A DNA stretch of 64,000 nt, taken from Haloplasma contractile (GTDB lineage Bacteria > Bacillota_I > Bacilli_A > Haloplasmatales > Haloplasmataceae). A model generated the notes under the pieces. That model searched no databases. It saw nothing but the letters and a program-made list of their open reading frames with translations, and had not been told where the DNA came from. A program made the position numbers and the translations under genes. Location of the stretch: contig JAENYC010000013.1 in the NCBI GenBank assembly GCA_016841945.1, forward strand, positions 1-64,000. The letters run 5' to 3'. Positions 29,142 through 36,225 of the stretch are shown piece by piece; position 1 is the first letter of the stretch; every line of letters starts with the position of its first letter.

Positions 29142-29175
29142 AGACGTGGGTTTATAGTGGAGTGATGCTTCACCA
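29142..29175 (+). repeat. tmRNA-like fragment R4
   Basis: AGACGTGGGTTTATAGTGG begins like the tmRNA T-arm in R1 and then diverges, followed by CTTCACCATATTA, which resembles the flank of R2. It is a weak but positioned match at the cut end of a gene fragment. Confidence 0.3.
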
Positions 29176-29260
29176 TATTAGAAAATCATTTAGTCGATAC
29201 GATAGATATTACATAAAATTTAGATTATTTAAATTACTAAGAATTGGAGGAATGTTATTT

Positions 29261-31546
29261 ATGGAAAATGAATTAAAAAATTATTCAGAAAAGCAACTTT
29301 TAAAAGCAGAAACATTTTTTAAAGATTATATAAAAAAAATACATTCATTGTATGGTATTGTAGCATCACATTCAATTTCTGCTATTTTTAGAGATATTAT
29401 TGCTATAATTAACAATACATTTACTGGTAAGTTTAAAGTGGAAGACTTATCAAAAGCACAACTTAAGTTATTACGCAGAAGGTATCGCGAAGTCTATAGG
29501 AATATTGAATCACTTCTTAAAGGCAATAATGACCTGTATTATAATCTTGAACATAAACTGGAACTAACAGATGTATTTAAGGAATATCTTTTTATAGCTT
29601 ATGATATAATACGGGAAAAAATGGAATTGTATGGATATAATACAAATACATCTACAGGTAAACTAGAACTAAAACATACACTAAGGTACCCTCTACTAGA
29701 AGAAAATCACCCTTTAAAGAGATTTATTAATTCTGACTTAAATTTAGTTCATTTGAATAGACAAAGAAAAAGGAATGTTATTTTATATGATAACAATTCC
29801 CATCAAATTATTTATGATTTGTTAGATGAAGTACTACTCATTAACCCAAAAATTCCTTTTTCAGACTTTGAGCATGACAATAATAGAAAATTTACTGAAC
29901 GAATCTGTATTGACTTCTTATATAATTTTGAGAAGAAAAGGGATTACTTTTTGAAATTGCTAAATCAAGATAAAATACTATATAATAAAGAAATCAGTAT
30001 TGTTGAAGGAAAGGAAAAGCCTAGTGGCGATGATTTGCTTGTTTTAATTTCTTTATTAGGGAGGTTAGATCAACAAAACAAATGGGGTCCAATTTCAGTT
30101 TTTAAAAAAGATAAATTATACCCAAATTTAATCCAAAATCATTCAACTAATTTAGAATACATTAAAGAATTAATTTTAACTTTAGAGGGATATAGACAAT
30201 TACTTCATATCGATAATTCTCCGATTTTACAATTATCTAATGTTTATTTTGATGTAATGAAAACTGATATTCAAAATATTATGTATTATATAGAACCAAT
30301 AAAAGAAAATAAAATCTTTAATAAGTCAAATGTATCTACTAATAAGAGAATAGGAAATGTTGAAAGCCCTAACTATCTCGAATCATTCTTTAGAAAGTTT
30401 TCTCAACTTGACAGATTTGAAGATGTAGTTCCGTATTTGAATAATAATGAAGATTTAGTTGAGTGGATTGATTTTACAAAAAGATATATGATTATTCCAA
30501 CGCAACCTGATTTTATTACTTCTGGAAAAATTAGGGCAATTTTAAGTGAATACAGTGTTGAAGAAATAGTCATTTCAGTACACGATGTCTATGATTTTTC
30601 AAAAAAGAATACTTATAGTAAAAAAGTAGCGAAACACCTTATCAATTTGTCAAAAGATATATTATCCGAATTTTACCGTTTGTACTTTATATTTAATACA
30701 CATATTGAAAGAGAAAGACTTAGTTTTATTGATAATGAATTGAACTTACATCAAAGCAATTATAATGACAACTATCTATCGATCACTTCAGATATGCACT
30801 TTAATAATCTTCAAAATTATGAAAAATCAAACTTCTCGAGTAACTTCAATGTTGTAGCTGGTGATTTTACTGATAACTTATACCATCGTGGTAATGCACA
30901 ATTAGAAGGTTGTATTGATATACATGGTATTGGTGTTTTAGGGAATCATGACATCTATTTATCAAATGATACAACATTTGATTTAACTAGAGAAATTAAG
31001 TCGAACTATAAAAAATCAATTTATAAGTTAAAGAAATCTTTCCCTAATATAAAAATATTGAATGATGAAATTTTATATAAAGACGGGTATGCAATAATTG
31101 GTATAACACTTGTATATGATATTGATAAAGGGGTTAGAACCTTCTTTGCTAATGAAGAATGGGGAAATAAGTTTGCTAATGATGATTACATAAAAAGGGC
31201 GGAAGATTTACTTGATAAAGTTCCAAGTGATATACCAATTGTTTTTATATCCCATTCACCGTTTAAAGAATATGCTGTATGTTCCAATAAGACAATAGGT
31301 GTACCTTCTGATAAAATCTTTAAAAATTATCCTAATGTTAAAGTTTACATACATGGTCATGGACATTCTTTGCCTAATAAAAAGATTATTGATGGAGTTT
31401 TATGTATTACTAATCCAATTATATTAGGTAGTAGTATATCAGAGGTATCATTTAGTCTAGATGAAATCTATAATATTTTAGGTCTAGATTCTAAAAAGAT
31501 TAAGATGTTAAATAATAATGATATTGTATCTCCTCAGTCAGAATGA
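29261..31546 (+). CDS. Large calcineurin-like metallophosphoesterase
   Basis: A 761-residue protein. The first 500 residues are helix-rich, with no family I recognise. Residues about 505-745 form a complete calcineurin-like phosphoesterase: SDMHFNN, VAGDFTDN, LGNHDIYL, FISHSPF and IHGHGHS supply all metal ligands. The start is the ATG at 29261, 10 bases after GGAGG; the longer frame from 29162 reads through a repeat. There is no signal peptide. The island setting and the large extra domain would fit a defence or nucleotide-signal enzyme, but this is inference. Confidence 0.75.
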   Translation: MENELKNYSEKQLLKAETFFKDYIKKIHSLYGIVASHSISAIFRDIIAIINNTFTGKFKVEDLSKAQLKLLRRRYREVYRNIESLLKGNNDLYYNLEHKLELTDVFKEYLFIAYDIIREKMELYGYNTNTSTGKLELKHTLRYPLLEENHPLKRFINSDLNLVHLNRQRKRNVILYDNNSHQIIYDLLDEVLLINPKIPFSDFEHDNNRKFTERICIDFLYNFEKKRDYFLKLLNQDKILYNKEISIVEGKEKPSGDDLLVLISLLGRLDQQNKWGPISVFKKDKLYPNLIQNHSTNLEYIKELILTLEGYRQLLHIDNSPILQLSNVYFDVMKTDIQNIMYYIEPIKENKIFNKSNVSTNKRIGNVESPNYLESFFRKFSQLDRFEDVVPYLNNNEDLVEWIDFTKRYMIIPTQPDFITSGKIRAILSEYSVEEIVISVHDVYDFSKKNTYSKKVAKHLINLSKDILSEFYRLYFIFNTHIERERLSFIDNELNLHQSNYNDNYLSITSDMHFNNLQNYEKSNFSSNFNVVAGDFTDNLYHRGNAQLEGCIDIHGIGVLGNHDIYLSNDTTFDLTREIKSNYKKSIYKLKKSFPNIKILNDEILYKDGYAIIGITLVYDIDKGVRTFFANEEWGNKFANDDYIKRAEDLLDKVPSDIPIVFISHSPFKEYAVCSNKTIGVPSDKIFKNYPNVKVYIHGHGHSLPNKKIIDGVLCITNPIILGSSISEVSFSLDEIYNILGLDSKKIKMLNNNDIVSPQSE

Positions 31547-31623: not shown

Positions 31624-31647
31624 AAAGCCCTTTTGGGCTTTTTATTT
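31624..31647 (+). terminator. Terminator after the metallophosphoesterase gene
   Basis: AAAGCCC and GGGCTTT (31624-31630, 31635-31641) pair around TTTT and run into a T-rich tract. It lies 78 bases after the stop. Confidence 0.8.
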
Positions 31648-31807
31648 TACAATATCAAATTGAACTATTTGAGTTCGAATCCTTACTGTCTTGGTGGTAT
31701 ATATTTATTGAAGTATGGTATAATGATACAAATACTATAAAGAATATTAAATTCAATCGATTATATACATCCTAAATATGTAGGCACTAGAAAAGGATTG
31801 ATATCAA

Positions 31808-34450
31808 ATGAAAAAAGTAGTTATAGGAATATTGGCTCATGTGGATGCTGGTAAGACCACTTTATCAGAGGCACTACTCTATATGAGCGGTAAGATTAGA
31901 AAACTTGGTCGTGTAGATAAAATGGATGCTTACTTAGATACCTATGAGTTAGAAAAAGAAAGAGGCATAACCATATTCTCAAAACAGGCTATATTTAATA
32001 TAGAAGATTTACAGATAACTTTACTGGATACACCAGGGCATGTGGATTTTTCCACTGAAATGGAAAGAACATTACAACTTCTTGATTATGCAATCTTAGT
32101 TATTAGTGGTGCAGATGGCATTCAGGGACACACGAAGACTTTATGGATGCTCTTAAAATTATATAAAATTCCTGTTTTTATTTTTATAAACAAAATGGAT
32201 CAATATGGAACAGATAAAAAAAGCTTAATCAAAGAACTGAAAAATCAACTAAGTGATGGATGTATTGAGTTTAGACAGACTAAAACAGAAAACTTTTATG
32301 ACCAACTTGCTATGTGTGATGAAAGGATAATGGAAACCTTCATAGATACAGGACATATCGAAACACGTGATATACAAAAATTAGTTGAAAAAAGAAAAGT
32401 TTTTCCTTGCTTTTTTGGTTCAGCTTTAAAACTAGATGGTGTTGAAAACATGATACGAGGGTTGACTGACTATATCATTCCACCAGTTTATTTTGATGAT
32501 TTCGGAGCTAAAGTGTTTAAAATAACGAGGGATGAAAAAGGAAATCGCTTAACTCATATGAAAATAACTGGTGGAAAATTAAAAGTAAAAGATGTTTTGA
32601 AATCTAATGATTGGGAAGAAAAAGTCAATCAAATTAGAATCTATTCAGGAGAAAAATTTCATACTGTCAATGAGATAGATTCTGGCTCTATTTGTACTGT
32701 TACTGGACTTAGTAAAGCGATGCCAGGAGACGGTTTTGGAATTGAGAAATCACATTATGAACCAATGCTTGAACCAGTACTTTTTTATCGGATGATACTT
32801 CCCGATGGATATGATCATAGAGTAATGCTACCGAAACTACGTGAAATCGAAGAAGAAGAACCAGAACTTCATATTGTATGGGATGAAAAACTACAAGAGA
32901 TACAAGTAAGAATCATGGGTGAAATTCAACTTGAAATTCTTCAAAGTATCATTCAAAGGCGATTTGGCGTTTTAGTAGAGTTTGATGATGGTGGTATAAT
33001 CTATAAAGAAACAATTGCCAACACTGTTGAAGGAGTAGGGCATTTTGAACCACTAAGACATTATGCAGAGGTTCACCTTTTGTTAGAACCAGGTGAACCA
33101 GGAAGTGGATTAGTCTATGATAATAGATGCAGTGAGGATACACTGAGTGGAAACTTCCAACGACTAGTTCTACAACATCTAAAAGAAAAAGCACATAAGG
33201 GTGTTTTAACAGGTTCAGAAATTACTGATATGCGTATTACACTCGTCTCTGGAAAGGCACACAATAAGCATACAGAAGGTGGCGACTTCAGAGAGGCGAC
33301 TTGGCGCGCAGTAAGACAAGGCTTAATGGAAGCTCAATCAGTTTTACTAGAACCCTACTATTCATTCAGCTTAGAAATACCTGAGAATATGGTAGGAAAG
33401 GCTATGACTGATATTAGTCAAATGAGTGGCACTTGTGAAATCACAGAAACAGATGGTGATATGGTAGTTGTTGAGGGGAGTGCCCCTGTAAGAAACATGA
33501 GAAATTATCATAAAGAAGTAATGGCTTATACCAAGGGTTATGGCAAATTACTTTACAACTTGAAAGGATATGAACCTTGTCTTAATAGTGATAAGATAAT
33601 AGAGGAAATTGGATATGACCCAACAAGAGACAAAGATAATACCTCTAGTTCAGTTTTTTGTTCACAAGGTTCAGGTTATATTGTTGAATGGAACGAAGTA
33701 AAAAAATATATGCATTTAGATAGTCATCTTAAGGAAAAGAGTAACAAAGATAAAGAATCAATTCCTCATCAATCCAACCATTCACAAGATGGATTTATTA
33801 GTGATGAAGAAGTTAAACACATTTTCCAAAAAACCTTCTATACGAATGCAAATAAGGCAAAGGGTACTGTGTGGAATAAACAAAAAACAGTAAGTAATTA
33901 TTCAAAAAACAATAATATCAATAAAGAAAAAACAGTCAAAAAAGAGTATCTACTTGTCGATGGTTATAATATTATTTATGCTTGGCCTGAGTTAAAAGAA
34001 TTAGTAGAACATAATATGGAAGCGGCTAGAATGCAATTAATAGATATTTTAAGTAATTATCAAGGGATGAGAAAATGTAAAATTATTGTTGTGTTTGATG
34101 CTTACCGTGTTCAGGGTCATCCAGAAGAGGTTATCACATACAATAACATTTATATAGTTTATACCAAAGAGGCCCAGACAGCTGATCAATATATCGAAAA
34201 ATTTGCGGTTGAACATAATGAAAAATACAACATTTCAGTGGCAACATCAGATGCCTTACAACAACTAATCGTTCGTGGGCAAGGATGTCTTTTATTATCA
34301 GCTAGAGAACTAAAACTAGAAATCGAAAGAGTCAATGAAAATGTTAGGCATCAATTACAGAAAAATAATCAAAAACTAAACAAAACATTATCTACTACCT
34401 CAAAAGAAAAATTACACGGCCTTATTAATAAGGATAATAAAGAAGATTAA
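31808..34450 (+). CDS. Tet(M)/EF-G-like GTPase fused to a YacP/Rae1-type NYN nuclease
   Basis: An 880-residue protein. Residues 1-640 are a ribosomal-protection/EF-G-like GTPase of Tet(M) length: G1 AHVDAGKTT, G2 ERGITI, G3 LDTPGHVDF, G4 INKMDQ, then domains II-V with ITGGKLKVKDV and SGTCEITETDG. After a linker (about 640-710) follows an NYN domain (about 713-870): LLVDGYNIIYAWPEL, IIVVFDAYRVQGH, TADQYIEKFA, VATSDALQQLIVRGQG, and SARELKLEIE. These match B. subtilis YacP/Rae1, the A-site mRNA endonuclease. The start follows AAAAGGA. The gene is intact among broken neighbours. It may confer drug tolerance, stalled-ribosome rescue, or both. Confidence 0.9.
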   Translation: MKKVVIGILAHVDAGKTTLSEALLYMSGKIRKLGRVDKMDAYLDTYELEKERGITIFSKQAIFNIEDLQITLLDTPGHVDFSTEMERTLQLLDYAILVISGADGIQGHTKTLWMLLKLYKIPVFIFINKMDQYGTDKKSLIKELKNQLSDGCIEFRQTKTENFYDQLAMCDERIMETFIDTGHIETRDIQKLVEKRKVFPCFFGSALKLDGVENMIRGLTDYIIPPVYFDDFGAKVFKITRDEKGNRLTHMKITGGKLKVKDVLKSNDWEEKVNQIRIYSGEKFHTVNEIDSGSICTVTGLSKAMPGDGFGIEKSHYEPMLEPVLFYRMILPDGYDHRVMLPKLREIEEEEPELHIVWDEKLQEIQVRIMGEIQLEILQSIIQRRFGVLVEFDDGGIIYKETIANTVEGVGHFEPLRHYAEVHLLLEPGEPGSGLVYDNRCSEDTLSGNFQRLVLQHLKEKAHKGVLTGSEITDMRITLVSGKAHNKHTEGGDFREATWRAVRQGLMEAQSVLLEPYYSFSLEIPENMVGKAMTDISQMSGTCEITETDGDMVVVEGSAPVRNMRNYHKEVMAYTKGYGKLLYNLKGYEPCLNSDKIIEEIGYDPTRDKDNTSSSVFCSQGSGYIVEWNEVKKYMHLDSHLKEKSNKDKESIPHQSNHSQDGFISDEEVKHIFQKTFYTNANKAKGTVWNKQKTVSNYSKNNNINKEKTVKKEYLLVDGYNIIYAWPELKELVEHNMEAARMQLIDILSNYQGMRKCKIIVVFDAYRVQGHPEEVITYNNIYIVYTKEAQTADQYIEKFAVEHNEKYNISVATSDALQQLIVRGQGCLLLSARELKLEIERVNENVRHQLQKNNQKLNKTLSTTSKEKLHGLINKDNKED

Positions 34451-34477: not shown

Positions 34478-34575
34478 CACCACAATCTAATTCTACGATA
34501 ACACCAATATAAAATATAAGTATAGAAATGTTAACTCTTCTAGTTTATAATGAAACTAGAAGAGTTTTTATATAA
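34478..34575 (+). promoter_or_regulatory. Hairpin-promoter element, copy B
   Basis: TAGAAA (34523-34528), 17 bases, TATAAT (34546-34551). Arms 34533-34545 and 34554-34566 pair perfectly over 13 bases, with the -10 box in the loop and a T run behind. It lies between the GTPase-NYN gene and the ABC exporter pseudogene, so it can end the first and start the second. CTCCACCA upstream (34473-34480) recalls R2. Confidence 0.7.
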
Positions 34576-34606: not shown

Positions 34607-36225
34607 ATGTCTATCAAGCATCAATTATTATCTGAGAAAGGATTATGGTTAGTATTAATGCTGTTTAGTATATTAGAAATTCTTATGTTTATGACTACGC
34701 CATTTATATATCAATACTTCATAGATAATGTAATTGAAAACAAGGCTATAGAATTTTTATTTTTAATTGTATTATTATATTTTCTTTCGTATGTAATTTT
34801 AGTTCTTTTCGGATTTCTCAAGGAAATAGTAACAACAAAACTATCTCAAAACGTTATTCAAAAAACAAGGAATAATTATTATATTCAACTAAAAAAATCA
34901 AAACCAACATATATTGGTCAGGTTAAATTAGGCTCTGAAATCACTGTACTAATAAATGAAATTAGTGATGTAATTACTCAATCTGTCATTGGCTATAAAA
35001 ATGTAATTGTAAATTCTTTGAGAATAATTATTGCTTGTGTGATATTATTTTTCCTAAATTATAAACTATTACTTTTGTTACTTTTTTTATTACCCATATA
35101 TATTCTTTTAACTTACACCTTTAAGGGTAAAATCGATAAAAATGCAAAAGAATATAATAAAATAAGAGAAGCATATACCAATACAATCCATGATGGCATA
35201 GAAGGCTATGAAGATATATTAATCTTTAATAAACATGAATGGGATATAAACAATGTTATAAACGGAAGTAAAAGATTTATTAAGAACAGAGTTCAAAACA
35301 CAATATTACTAAGAGCAGCATCCGATATTTCGTATCTTTTCTACTGGGGTGTTATTTGTATAATTTACTACATAAGTGCGGTAAACATAATAGAAAGCAA
35401 GTTCACTTTAGGGTTAATGTTAGTTTATGTAGCGTATTTAGATAATATATACTCTCCAAGTAGAATCATATTATCATCTATTGCTATACTGAAAAATGCT
35501 AAATCGCTTGCATCAAATGTTAATAATAAAATGACAACAATGAAAGAACAAGAAGATAATTTCCCTAATACTATATTTTACAACATAAATAGTATAGATG
35601 AGATCTGTTTTAAAGGTATAAGATTTCAATATATAAAAGATGGGTTCCATTTAAGGTCGATCACATTAAGTTAAAGTCTGGTGAACAAATAGGCTTTTTA
35701 GGGGAAAGTGGATGTGGTAAAACGACAATCTTAAAAGTTTTATCGGGTCTATACATGCCTAATAAAGGAACTATACATTTAAATGATAAGCCAATTTTAG
35801 GATATGAACTACGTAAATACACTATTTTATGTAGTCAAAATCCACATCTTTTTTCAATGGAACTAACTGATAATATTAACTTTTCTAATATAATTACTAA
35901 GGATCACAACTATATAAATTATGTATATAAGGCACTAGGTATTAATGATTTCATTAATAAGAGTGCAATAGAACTATCAGGTGGACAATACCACCGAATT
36001 GCCCTTGCTAGAGCATTAATTAGTGAAGCAAAATTATACATATTCGATGAACCAACAGCAAGCATTGACAAGGAGAGAAGAAAATAATTTTATAAAATAC
36101 TTGAACGATTAAAAAATCAGAATAAAATAATTATTGTGATAACTCACAATGTAAATGAAATATCAAAATTTGATAAAGTTTACAAAGTATATCAAGGAGT
36201 TCTCGATAAGATATTACTCTATTAA
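34607..36225 (+). pseudogene. ABC exporter half-transporter, broken by frameshift and nonsense
   Basis: The first 355 codons encode the six-helix membrane domain of a type I exporter, up to FKGIRFQYIKDGFHLRSITL. Then a single base is missing near 35665 (an A in TTAAAG would restore KLKSGEQIGFLGESGCGKTT, the Walker A). The second piece runs to LSGGQYHRIALARAL and FDEPTASIDKERRK, meets a TAA at 36085, and continues in frame with FYKILERLKNQNKIIIVITHN to a stop at 36223. All exporter motifs remain but in three pieces. The likely original was about 538 residues. Confidence 0.88.

Follow-up and report, generated by a model that had tools for sequence, protein, structure and literature searches.

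A translational GTPase fused to a Rae1-like NYN nuclease in Haloplasma contractile, a candidate ribosome-guided mRNA endonuclease

Rae1 cleaves mRNA in a translation-dependent manner, in the A site of the ribosome. What, then, is the role of a protein that carries a Rae1-like nuclease and a translational GTPase in one chain? The question is raised by a gene of Haloplasma contractile (assembly GCA_016841945.1) that lies in positions 1 to 64,000 of contig JAENYC010000013.1, the stretch of DNA analysed here and called the window below. As the preliminary description of this DNA had stated, the gene is intact: one open reading frame of 880 residues, with an ATG start and no internal stops (Table 1).

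The novelty that the preliminary description gave to this architecture was overstated, since an NYN fusion was already described in 2015. The main text of that study (Atkinson 2015, PMC4342817) reports that the Tet proteins of ten Clostridiales species gained a YacP-like NYN RNase domain, for which it proposes RNase activity with a role in resistance. The group described there combines the same two parts in one chain, an EF-G/Tet-type GTPase and a YacP-like NYN, but its hosts are Clostridia, whereas the host of the window gene, a horizontal gain, lies outside them. The main text does not include a link to the loss of free Rae1, an analysis of loop III in the fused group, a linker motif or truncated forms. 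In NCBI annotation these fusions go under 'translation factor GTPase family protein' or 'TetM/TetW/TetO/TetS family', and searches of a collection of open-access papers found no functional study of an NYN-fused GTPase. The window gene is a further member of a known architecture, with new comparative evidence on function; added here are the replacement of rae1, unfused sister pairs, a GTPase outside the Tet(M/O/S/W) clade, a linker helix with truncated forms, and a horizontal origin.

Table 1. Features of the fusion gene and its flanks in the window (residues refer to the 880-residue protein)
Feature	Residues	Position	Strand	Basis
Terminator-like hairpin, 5' side of the gene		31624-31641		
Putative extended -10 promoter element TGGTATAAT		31716..31724	+	read from sequence
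Ribosome-binding-like AAAAGGAT		5' of the ORF		read from sequence
Fusion gene, translational GTPase-linker-NYN nuclease	880 aa	31808..34450	+	ATG start; internal stops: none
G domain	4-223	31817..32476	+	Pfam GTP_EFTU 9.8e-52
Domain II	233-305	32504..32722	+	Pfam EF-G_D2 4.9e-7
Domain III	323-392	32774..32983	+	Pfam EFG_III 6.2e-7
Domain IV	397-510	32996..33337	+	Pfam EFG_IV 3.2e-19
Domain IV loop III tip GKAHNKHTEGGDFR	482-495	33251..33292	+	alignment
Domain V	512-592	33341..33583	+	Pfam EFG_C 1.9e-20
Clade-specific C-terminal extension of the GTPase, ...SVFC.QGSGY.V.WNEVKKYMH	593-637	33584..33718	+	alignment
Linker, fast-evolving, predicted disordered except one helix	638-712	33719..33943	+	pLDDT mostly <50
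Conserved linker helix motif ISDEEVKHIFQKTFY	664-678	33797..33841	+	AlphaFold2 helix 666-677
NYN_YacP / Rae1-like nuclease domain	715-870	33950..34417	+	Pfam 3.6e-54; PDB match
Putative catalytic Asp718 (VDGYN)	718	33959..33961	+	invariant 58/58
Putative catalytic Asp764 (VFDAY)	764	34097..34099	+	invariant 58/58
Putative catalytic Asp793 (TAD)	793	34184..34186	+	invariant 58/58
Putative catalytic Asp815 (TSD)	815	34250..34252	+	invariant 58/58
Terminator-like hairpin, 3' of the gene		34533..34566	+	

On the NYN_YacP model (PF05991) the window protein scored 183.7 bits, against a cut-off of 24.6. Among solved structures, Rae1 was the closest to the NYN half (Bacillus subtilis Rae1/YacP, 5MQ8/5MQ9, 2.8e-28). 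The putative catalytic aspartates on which the preliminary description let the nuclease assignment depend are kept here and in every one of the aligned NYN domains, a set that combined fused and free ones, and B. subtilis Rae1 shares all four. Rae1 differs from the fusion in being a free protein of ~170 aa, encoded between rlmB and sigH, without GTPase and without linker motif.

The alignment showed that the G domain motifs of the other half are intact (G1 AHVDAGKTT, switch I RGIT, G3 DTPGH with His78, G4 NKMD and G5 GSALK). With G1 to G5, the catalytic His and domains II to V in place, the fusion is, as judged from its sequence, a translational GTPase of the EF2/EF-G family. The GTPase half matched TetO (1.6e-81), TetM and EF-G, and the best PDB matches of the fusion in Foldseek were EF-G. 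Its likeness to EF-G lies in the fold and in the domain IV tip histidine: His485 aligns with the tip His of EF-G and is, with H488, T489, G491, G492, D493, F494 and R495, invariant in loop III among 25 sequences. AlphaFold2, with 25 sequences, gave two folded parts and a joining linker (mean pLDDT 77.8, pTM 0.57). The host's own EF-G is a separate gene (contig C7), ~26% identical to the fusion. Of the preliminary description of the protein as a complete Tet(M)/EF-G-like GTPase joined to a Rae1-like NYN domain, the complete GTPase and the NYN are borne out, while the Tet(M)-type part is not. The same genome encodes a second, unfused Tet/EF-G-like GTPase (G000 contig C2:21742-23610, L062), which is 34% identical to the fusion, scores 552 bits against the resistance cut-off of 775 described below and has a loop III of yet another kind.

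A tet(M)-like leader or attenuator was searched for in the window, in G006 and in L012, and no Shine-Dalgarno-bearing leader ORF was found. An apparent anti-Shine-Dalgarno pairing upstream of several Lachnospirales copies overlaps a TTGTCA-17-TATAAT-type promoter, is therefore probably untranscribed, and was dropped. One 5' leader of the fusion (L153, G513) has a hairpin, ACAGGCC...GGTCTGT, followed by AATTTTTT, a possible attenuator; the leader hairpins of G628, G693 and G734 resemble it but are weaker. On one side of the window gene, positions 29162-31546 encode a protein of 794 aa that ends in a calcineurin-like phosphoesterase domain; its long N-terminal part has no Pfam match. On the other, in a region that the preliminary description called full of broken genes, there is one split ABC transporter (34607-36087), a broken gene of which 355 aa are the membrane part and 110 aa the ATPase part.

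In a homologue search the full-length architecture recurred in dozens of independent genomes, and several of these consist of a single contig (G030, G174). This recurrence argues that the fusion is neither a chance nor an assembly join and agrees with the earlier reading of one gene rather than two separate halves. The clostridial relatives that had been anticipated do exist: the same architecture occurs in Clostridiales and Lachnospiraceae genomes, with full-length relatives up to 66% identical in Lachnospirales-type genomes, and the orthologue in G006 is 82% identical to the window protein. Unusually long fused ORFs, 1095-1190 aa from stop to stop and perhaps with extra domains, were seen at G153:C94, G708:C68 and G959:C47. 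Phage carriage was considered for two 'Bacteriophage sp.' entries (L081, L082; MT835514.1, MT835563.1) and rejected: by inspection these look like bacterial chromosome fragments, with FeoB-, GreA-, glycerol-kinase- and DapF-like genes, and were taken as bacterial contigs. Plasmid carriage, also rejected, was rare and confined to large replicons (Monoglobus 518 kb, Agathobacter 252 kb) with no mobile signature.

The fusion and free Rae1 are rarely found in one genome. The host genome has one NYN_YacP domain in all, that of the fusion. In the host class, 28 of 296 and 38 of 392 genomes carried an above-cut-off NYN_YacP, almost always in ORFs of more than 800 aa; for the class of [Clostridium] fimetarium the figure was 217 of 341. 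Within Lachnospiraceae the domain was present in 135 of 150 genomes, and 120 of 138 matches lay in ORFs of at least 800 aa. The 148 clostridial genomes among the matches listed comprised 82 with the fused form only, 56 with the free form only, 8 of unclear length, one with both forms (G822) and one with two fusions (G625); second NYN matches in G628, G693 and G734 were below the cut-off and were discarded as spurious. By these counts, the fusion comes close to being a core gene of Lachnospiraceae, and it and free Rae1 all but exclude each other. This exclusivity stands for few evolutionary events, not 140 independent ones.

Gene order pointed in the same direction. In Paenibacillus, Aquibacillus, Clostridium, G822 and several Lachnospiraceae, free rae1 separates rlmB from sigH, whereas in six fused genomes, including that of the host, rlmB is directly followed by sigH and rae1 is missing (cysS-mrnC-rlmB-sigH in the host versus cysS-mrnC-rlmB-rae1-sigH with the free gene). 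The unfused sister GTPase and free Rae1 occur together in C. intestinale, Paenibacillus and Aquibacillus, and the sister GTPase is present in five of eight free-Rae1 Lachnospiraceae. The GTPase was also missing from four genomes of this family that had no NYN at all. G001, of the same genus as the host, has no NYN_YacP, and many related genomes have neither form, so the fusion is dispensable.

We built a GTPase tree with IQ-TREE (LG+C20), rooted on one long EF-G branch and leaving out Tet(Q), OtrA and TetB(P). Fused proteins and unfused sisters from Clostridium, Paenibacillus and Aquibacillus formed one 61-row clade (SH-aLRT 99) that stands apart from Tet(M/O/S/W). The window gene, G006 and G002/L012 fell inside a Lachnospirales-type clade (SH-aLRT 98), and a topology that joined the window-type genes to fused genes from their own class was rejected (p-AU 0.00017). 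The GC content of the gene is 33.5%, versus 28% for the window. We conclude from the trees that the window copy descends horizontally from a Lachnospirales-type gene. A single origin of the fusion is compatible with the topology tests (p-AU 0.31 and 0.40); the NYN tree by itself, with two label changes and p-AU 0.40 for one clade, fits one fusion event as well as two.

One alternative is that the two halves act separately, as an EF-G-like factor and a Rae1, and are fused only for co-expression. Unfused pairs occur, and the linker is long and variable; it is 57% identical to that of G006, compared with 85% for the domains. Each half has also been lost alone in some lineages. In Ligilactobacillus salivarius the tree places the GTPase within or near the fused clade with the NYN missing, which indicates that the GTPase can act alone; the copy on the megaplasmid (L084) adjoins rpsN (S14), and this NYN-less gene recurs on many plasmids of L. 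salivarius. Most genomes of genus g49 carry the full fusion of 810-870 aa, but G060 and G988 keep the G domain, domains II and III and the NYN with domains IV-V missing, and five to six genomes have only linker motif and NYN (201-226 aa), with no family GTPase found elsewhere in the genome. Linker motif and NYN persist throughout this truncation series (L070, L169, L170, L172 and L173); these shortened forms come from draft genomes, several of them <80% complete. In two unrelated groups (L150, L151 and L152; L170, L172 and L173), a dihydrouridine-synthase-like gene adjoins the fusion or the NYN-only form, as read from ORF starts.

Against separate action, however, the linker retains a conserved helix. 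With a pattern loosened after inspection, its motif was found in 44 of 50 fused linkers versus 5% of shuffled ones, several of the six exceptions being near-variants, and a pattern search found it absent from free Rae1 proteins. Moreover, the fusion has lasted across a large part of Lachnospiraceae and in a second class, and each of its halves is conserved there. We regard independent action of the two halves as unlikely. Comparing the window gene with its G006 orthologue by NG86, we obtained dN/dS values of 0.079/0.564 (~0.14) in the GTPase, 0.081/0.711 (~0.11) in the NYN and 0.285/0.727 in the linker. The low ratios of GTPase and NYN indicate purifying selection on both halves, which upholds the earlier view that the gene is under selection.

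Our preferred reading, which we consider probable, is that the fusion is a GTPase-tethered Rae1, that is, a ribosome-guided mRNA endonuclease for paused ribosomes. That this protein binds ribosomes and cuts in the A site is inferred, as are the sequence of steps and the physiological trigger. GTPase domains I-V would bind the factor site of ribosomes with a free or paused A site, and GTP hydrolysis would free domain IV from the A site. The NYN, tethered nearby by the ~75-residue linker, would then enter the vacated A site and cut the mRNA, after which decay of that message would start and the ribosome could be rescued. In Lachnospiraceae and relatives, the fusion would stand in for the free Rae1 of other Bacillota. 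Several features argue for a tethered Rae1: the Rae1-closest NYN with its acidic residues, the intact GTPase motifs, the exclusivity with rae1 and its positional loss, the unfused partner pairs (a Rosetta Stone relationship), the near-core status, and the g49 derivatives that keep motif and NYN. Speaking against it, Rae1 and a domain IV of the EF-G type are rivals for the A site, the exclusivity represents few events, some relatives have neither form, the L. salivarius copy is without NYN, and the truncations come from draft genomes. Since domain IV and NYN cannot share the A site, they would have to occupy it sequentially by way of the long linker; the g49 forms that have lost domains IV-V and kept the NYN would fit the NYN as the part acting there. 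More tentatively, the nuclease may be timed by GTP: domain IV of this EF-G paralogue would open or test the A site and, once GTP is hydrolysed, yield it to the tethered Rae1, which would cut the mRNA, and the linker helix would serve to dock the nuclease on the ribosome or on a partner. The comparative evidence for a tethered Rae1 is in line with the earlier proposal of a GTPase that delivers a nuclease to ribosomes that have stalled; translation quality control is the best-supported branch of that proposal, whereas its phage-defence branch is without support.

The label that such proteins often bear points to another function, namely ribosomal protection against tetracycline or another A-site drug, to which the nuclease would add a further means of resistance. 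The GTPase half resembles TetO and TetM over its whole length (1.6e-81), sharing the five domains, ~30% identity and an equal core length with Tet(M)/Tet(O); some NCBI annotations read 'TetM/TetW/TetO/TetS family', and the main text of Atkinson 2015 (PMC4342817) places such proteins in a Tet subfamily and suggests a resistance role. On the curated NCBIfam resistance model NF012153 (cut-off 775 bits), however, the window protein scored 441, whereas the controls Tet(M) and L011 reached 874 and 964; unfused sisters and another fused protein scored 376-435. Loop III reads GKAHNKHTEGGDFR, compared with YYSPVSTPADFR in Tet(M/O/S/W), and is without the S508-P509-V510 of the Tet loop. The Tet C-terminal extension is replaced by one of another type (SVFC..G.G..V.W.EV..YMH), which also ends the unfused sister GTPases. 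In Tet(M), P509 is located at C1054 within the drug site (PMC8161019), and both loop III and the C-terminal helix are important to its function (PMC4750697). Triple-Ala loop III mutants of Tet(M) can nevertheless retain activity (PMC4750697), which keeps the loop argument from being absolute. The separate clade and the added NYN also set the fusion apart from Tet(M)/Tet(O). Finally, this is a nearly core gene of Lachnospiraceae, yet Roseburia intestinalis M50/1, which likely carries the fusion, has a tetracycline MIC of 0.019 ug/ml without tet(O) (PMC11913394). The fusion is thus probably not a tetracycline-resistance gene, a drug-protection role of any such kind is improbable, and the Tet(M)-type assignment and tetracycline release of the preliminary description are not supported.

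It has also been put forward, in the main text of Atkinson 2015 citing Anantharaman and Aravind (PMC4342817), that the NYN cuts rRNA, and one could add tRNA, rather than mRNA, leading to ribosome inactivation or rRNA maturation. We give this little credence, as the closest solved relative, Rae1, acts translation-dependently on mRNA and the exchange of the fusion with rae1, in position and in presence or absence, implies the same job. An anti-phage or abortive-infection effector is most improbable: ribosome-targeted nucleases can be effectors and the window copy was gained horizontally, but PADLOC models gave no match at E 0.01 for the fusion and five neighbours, ten related loci are ordinary chromosomal settings by inspection, and this is a core gene of one family.

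Collectively, our results make quality control and mRNA decay the best-supported reading of the fusion, with resistance, rRNA cleavage and phage defence less likely. They suggest that a gene of gut commensals to which a tetracycline-resistance label is often given more likely encodes a core factor that acts with the ribosome in mRNA decay or quality control, a reassignment that affects resistome annotation. The natural fusion, the unfused pairs and the truncations provide material on how a Rae1-type nuclease reaches the A site, so far modelled. If true, a GTP-timed A-site nuclease would be a new way to target an mRNase to paused ribosomes and would be the main Rae1-type decay route in Lachnospiraceae.
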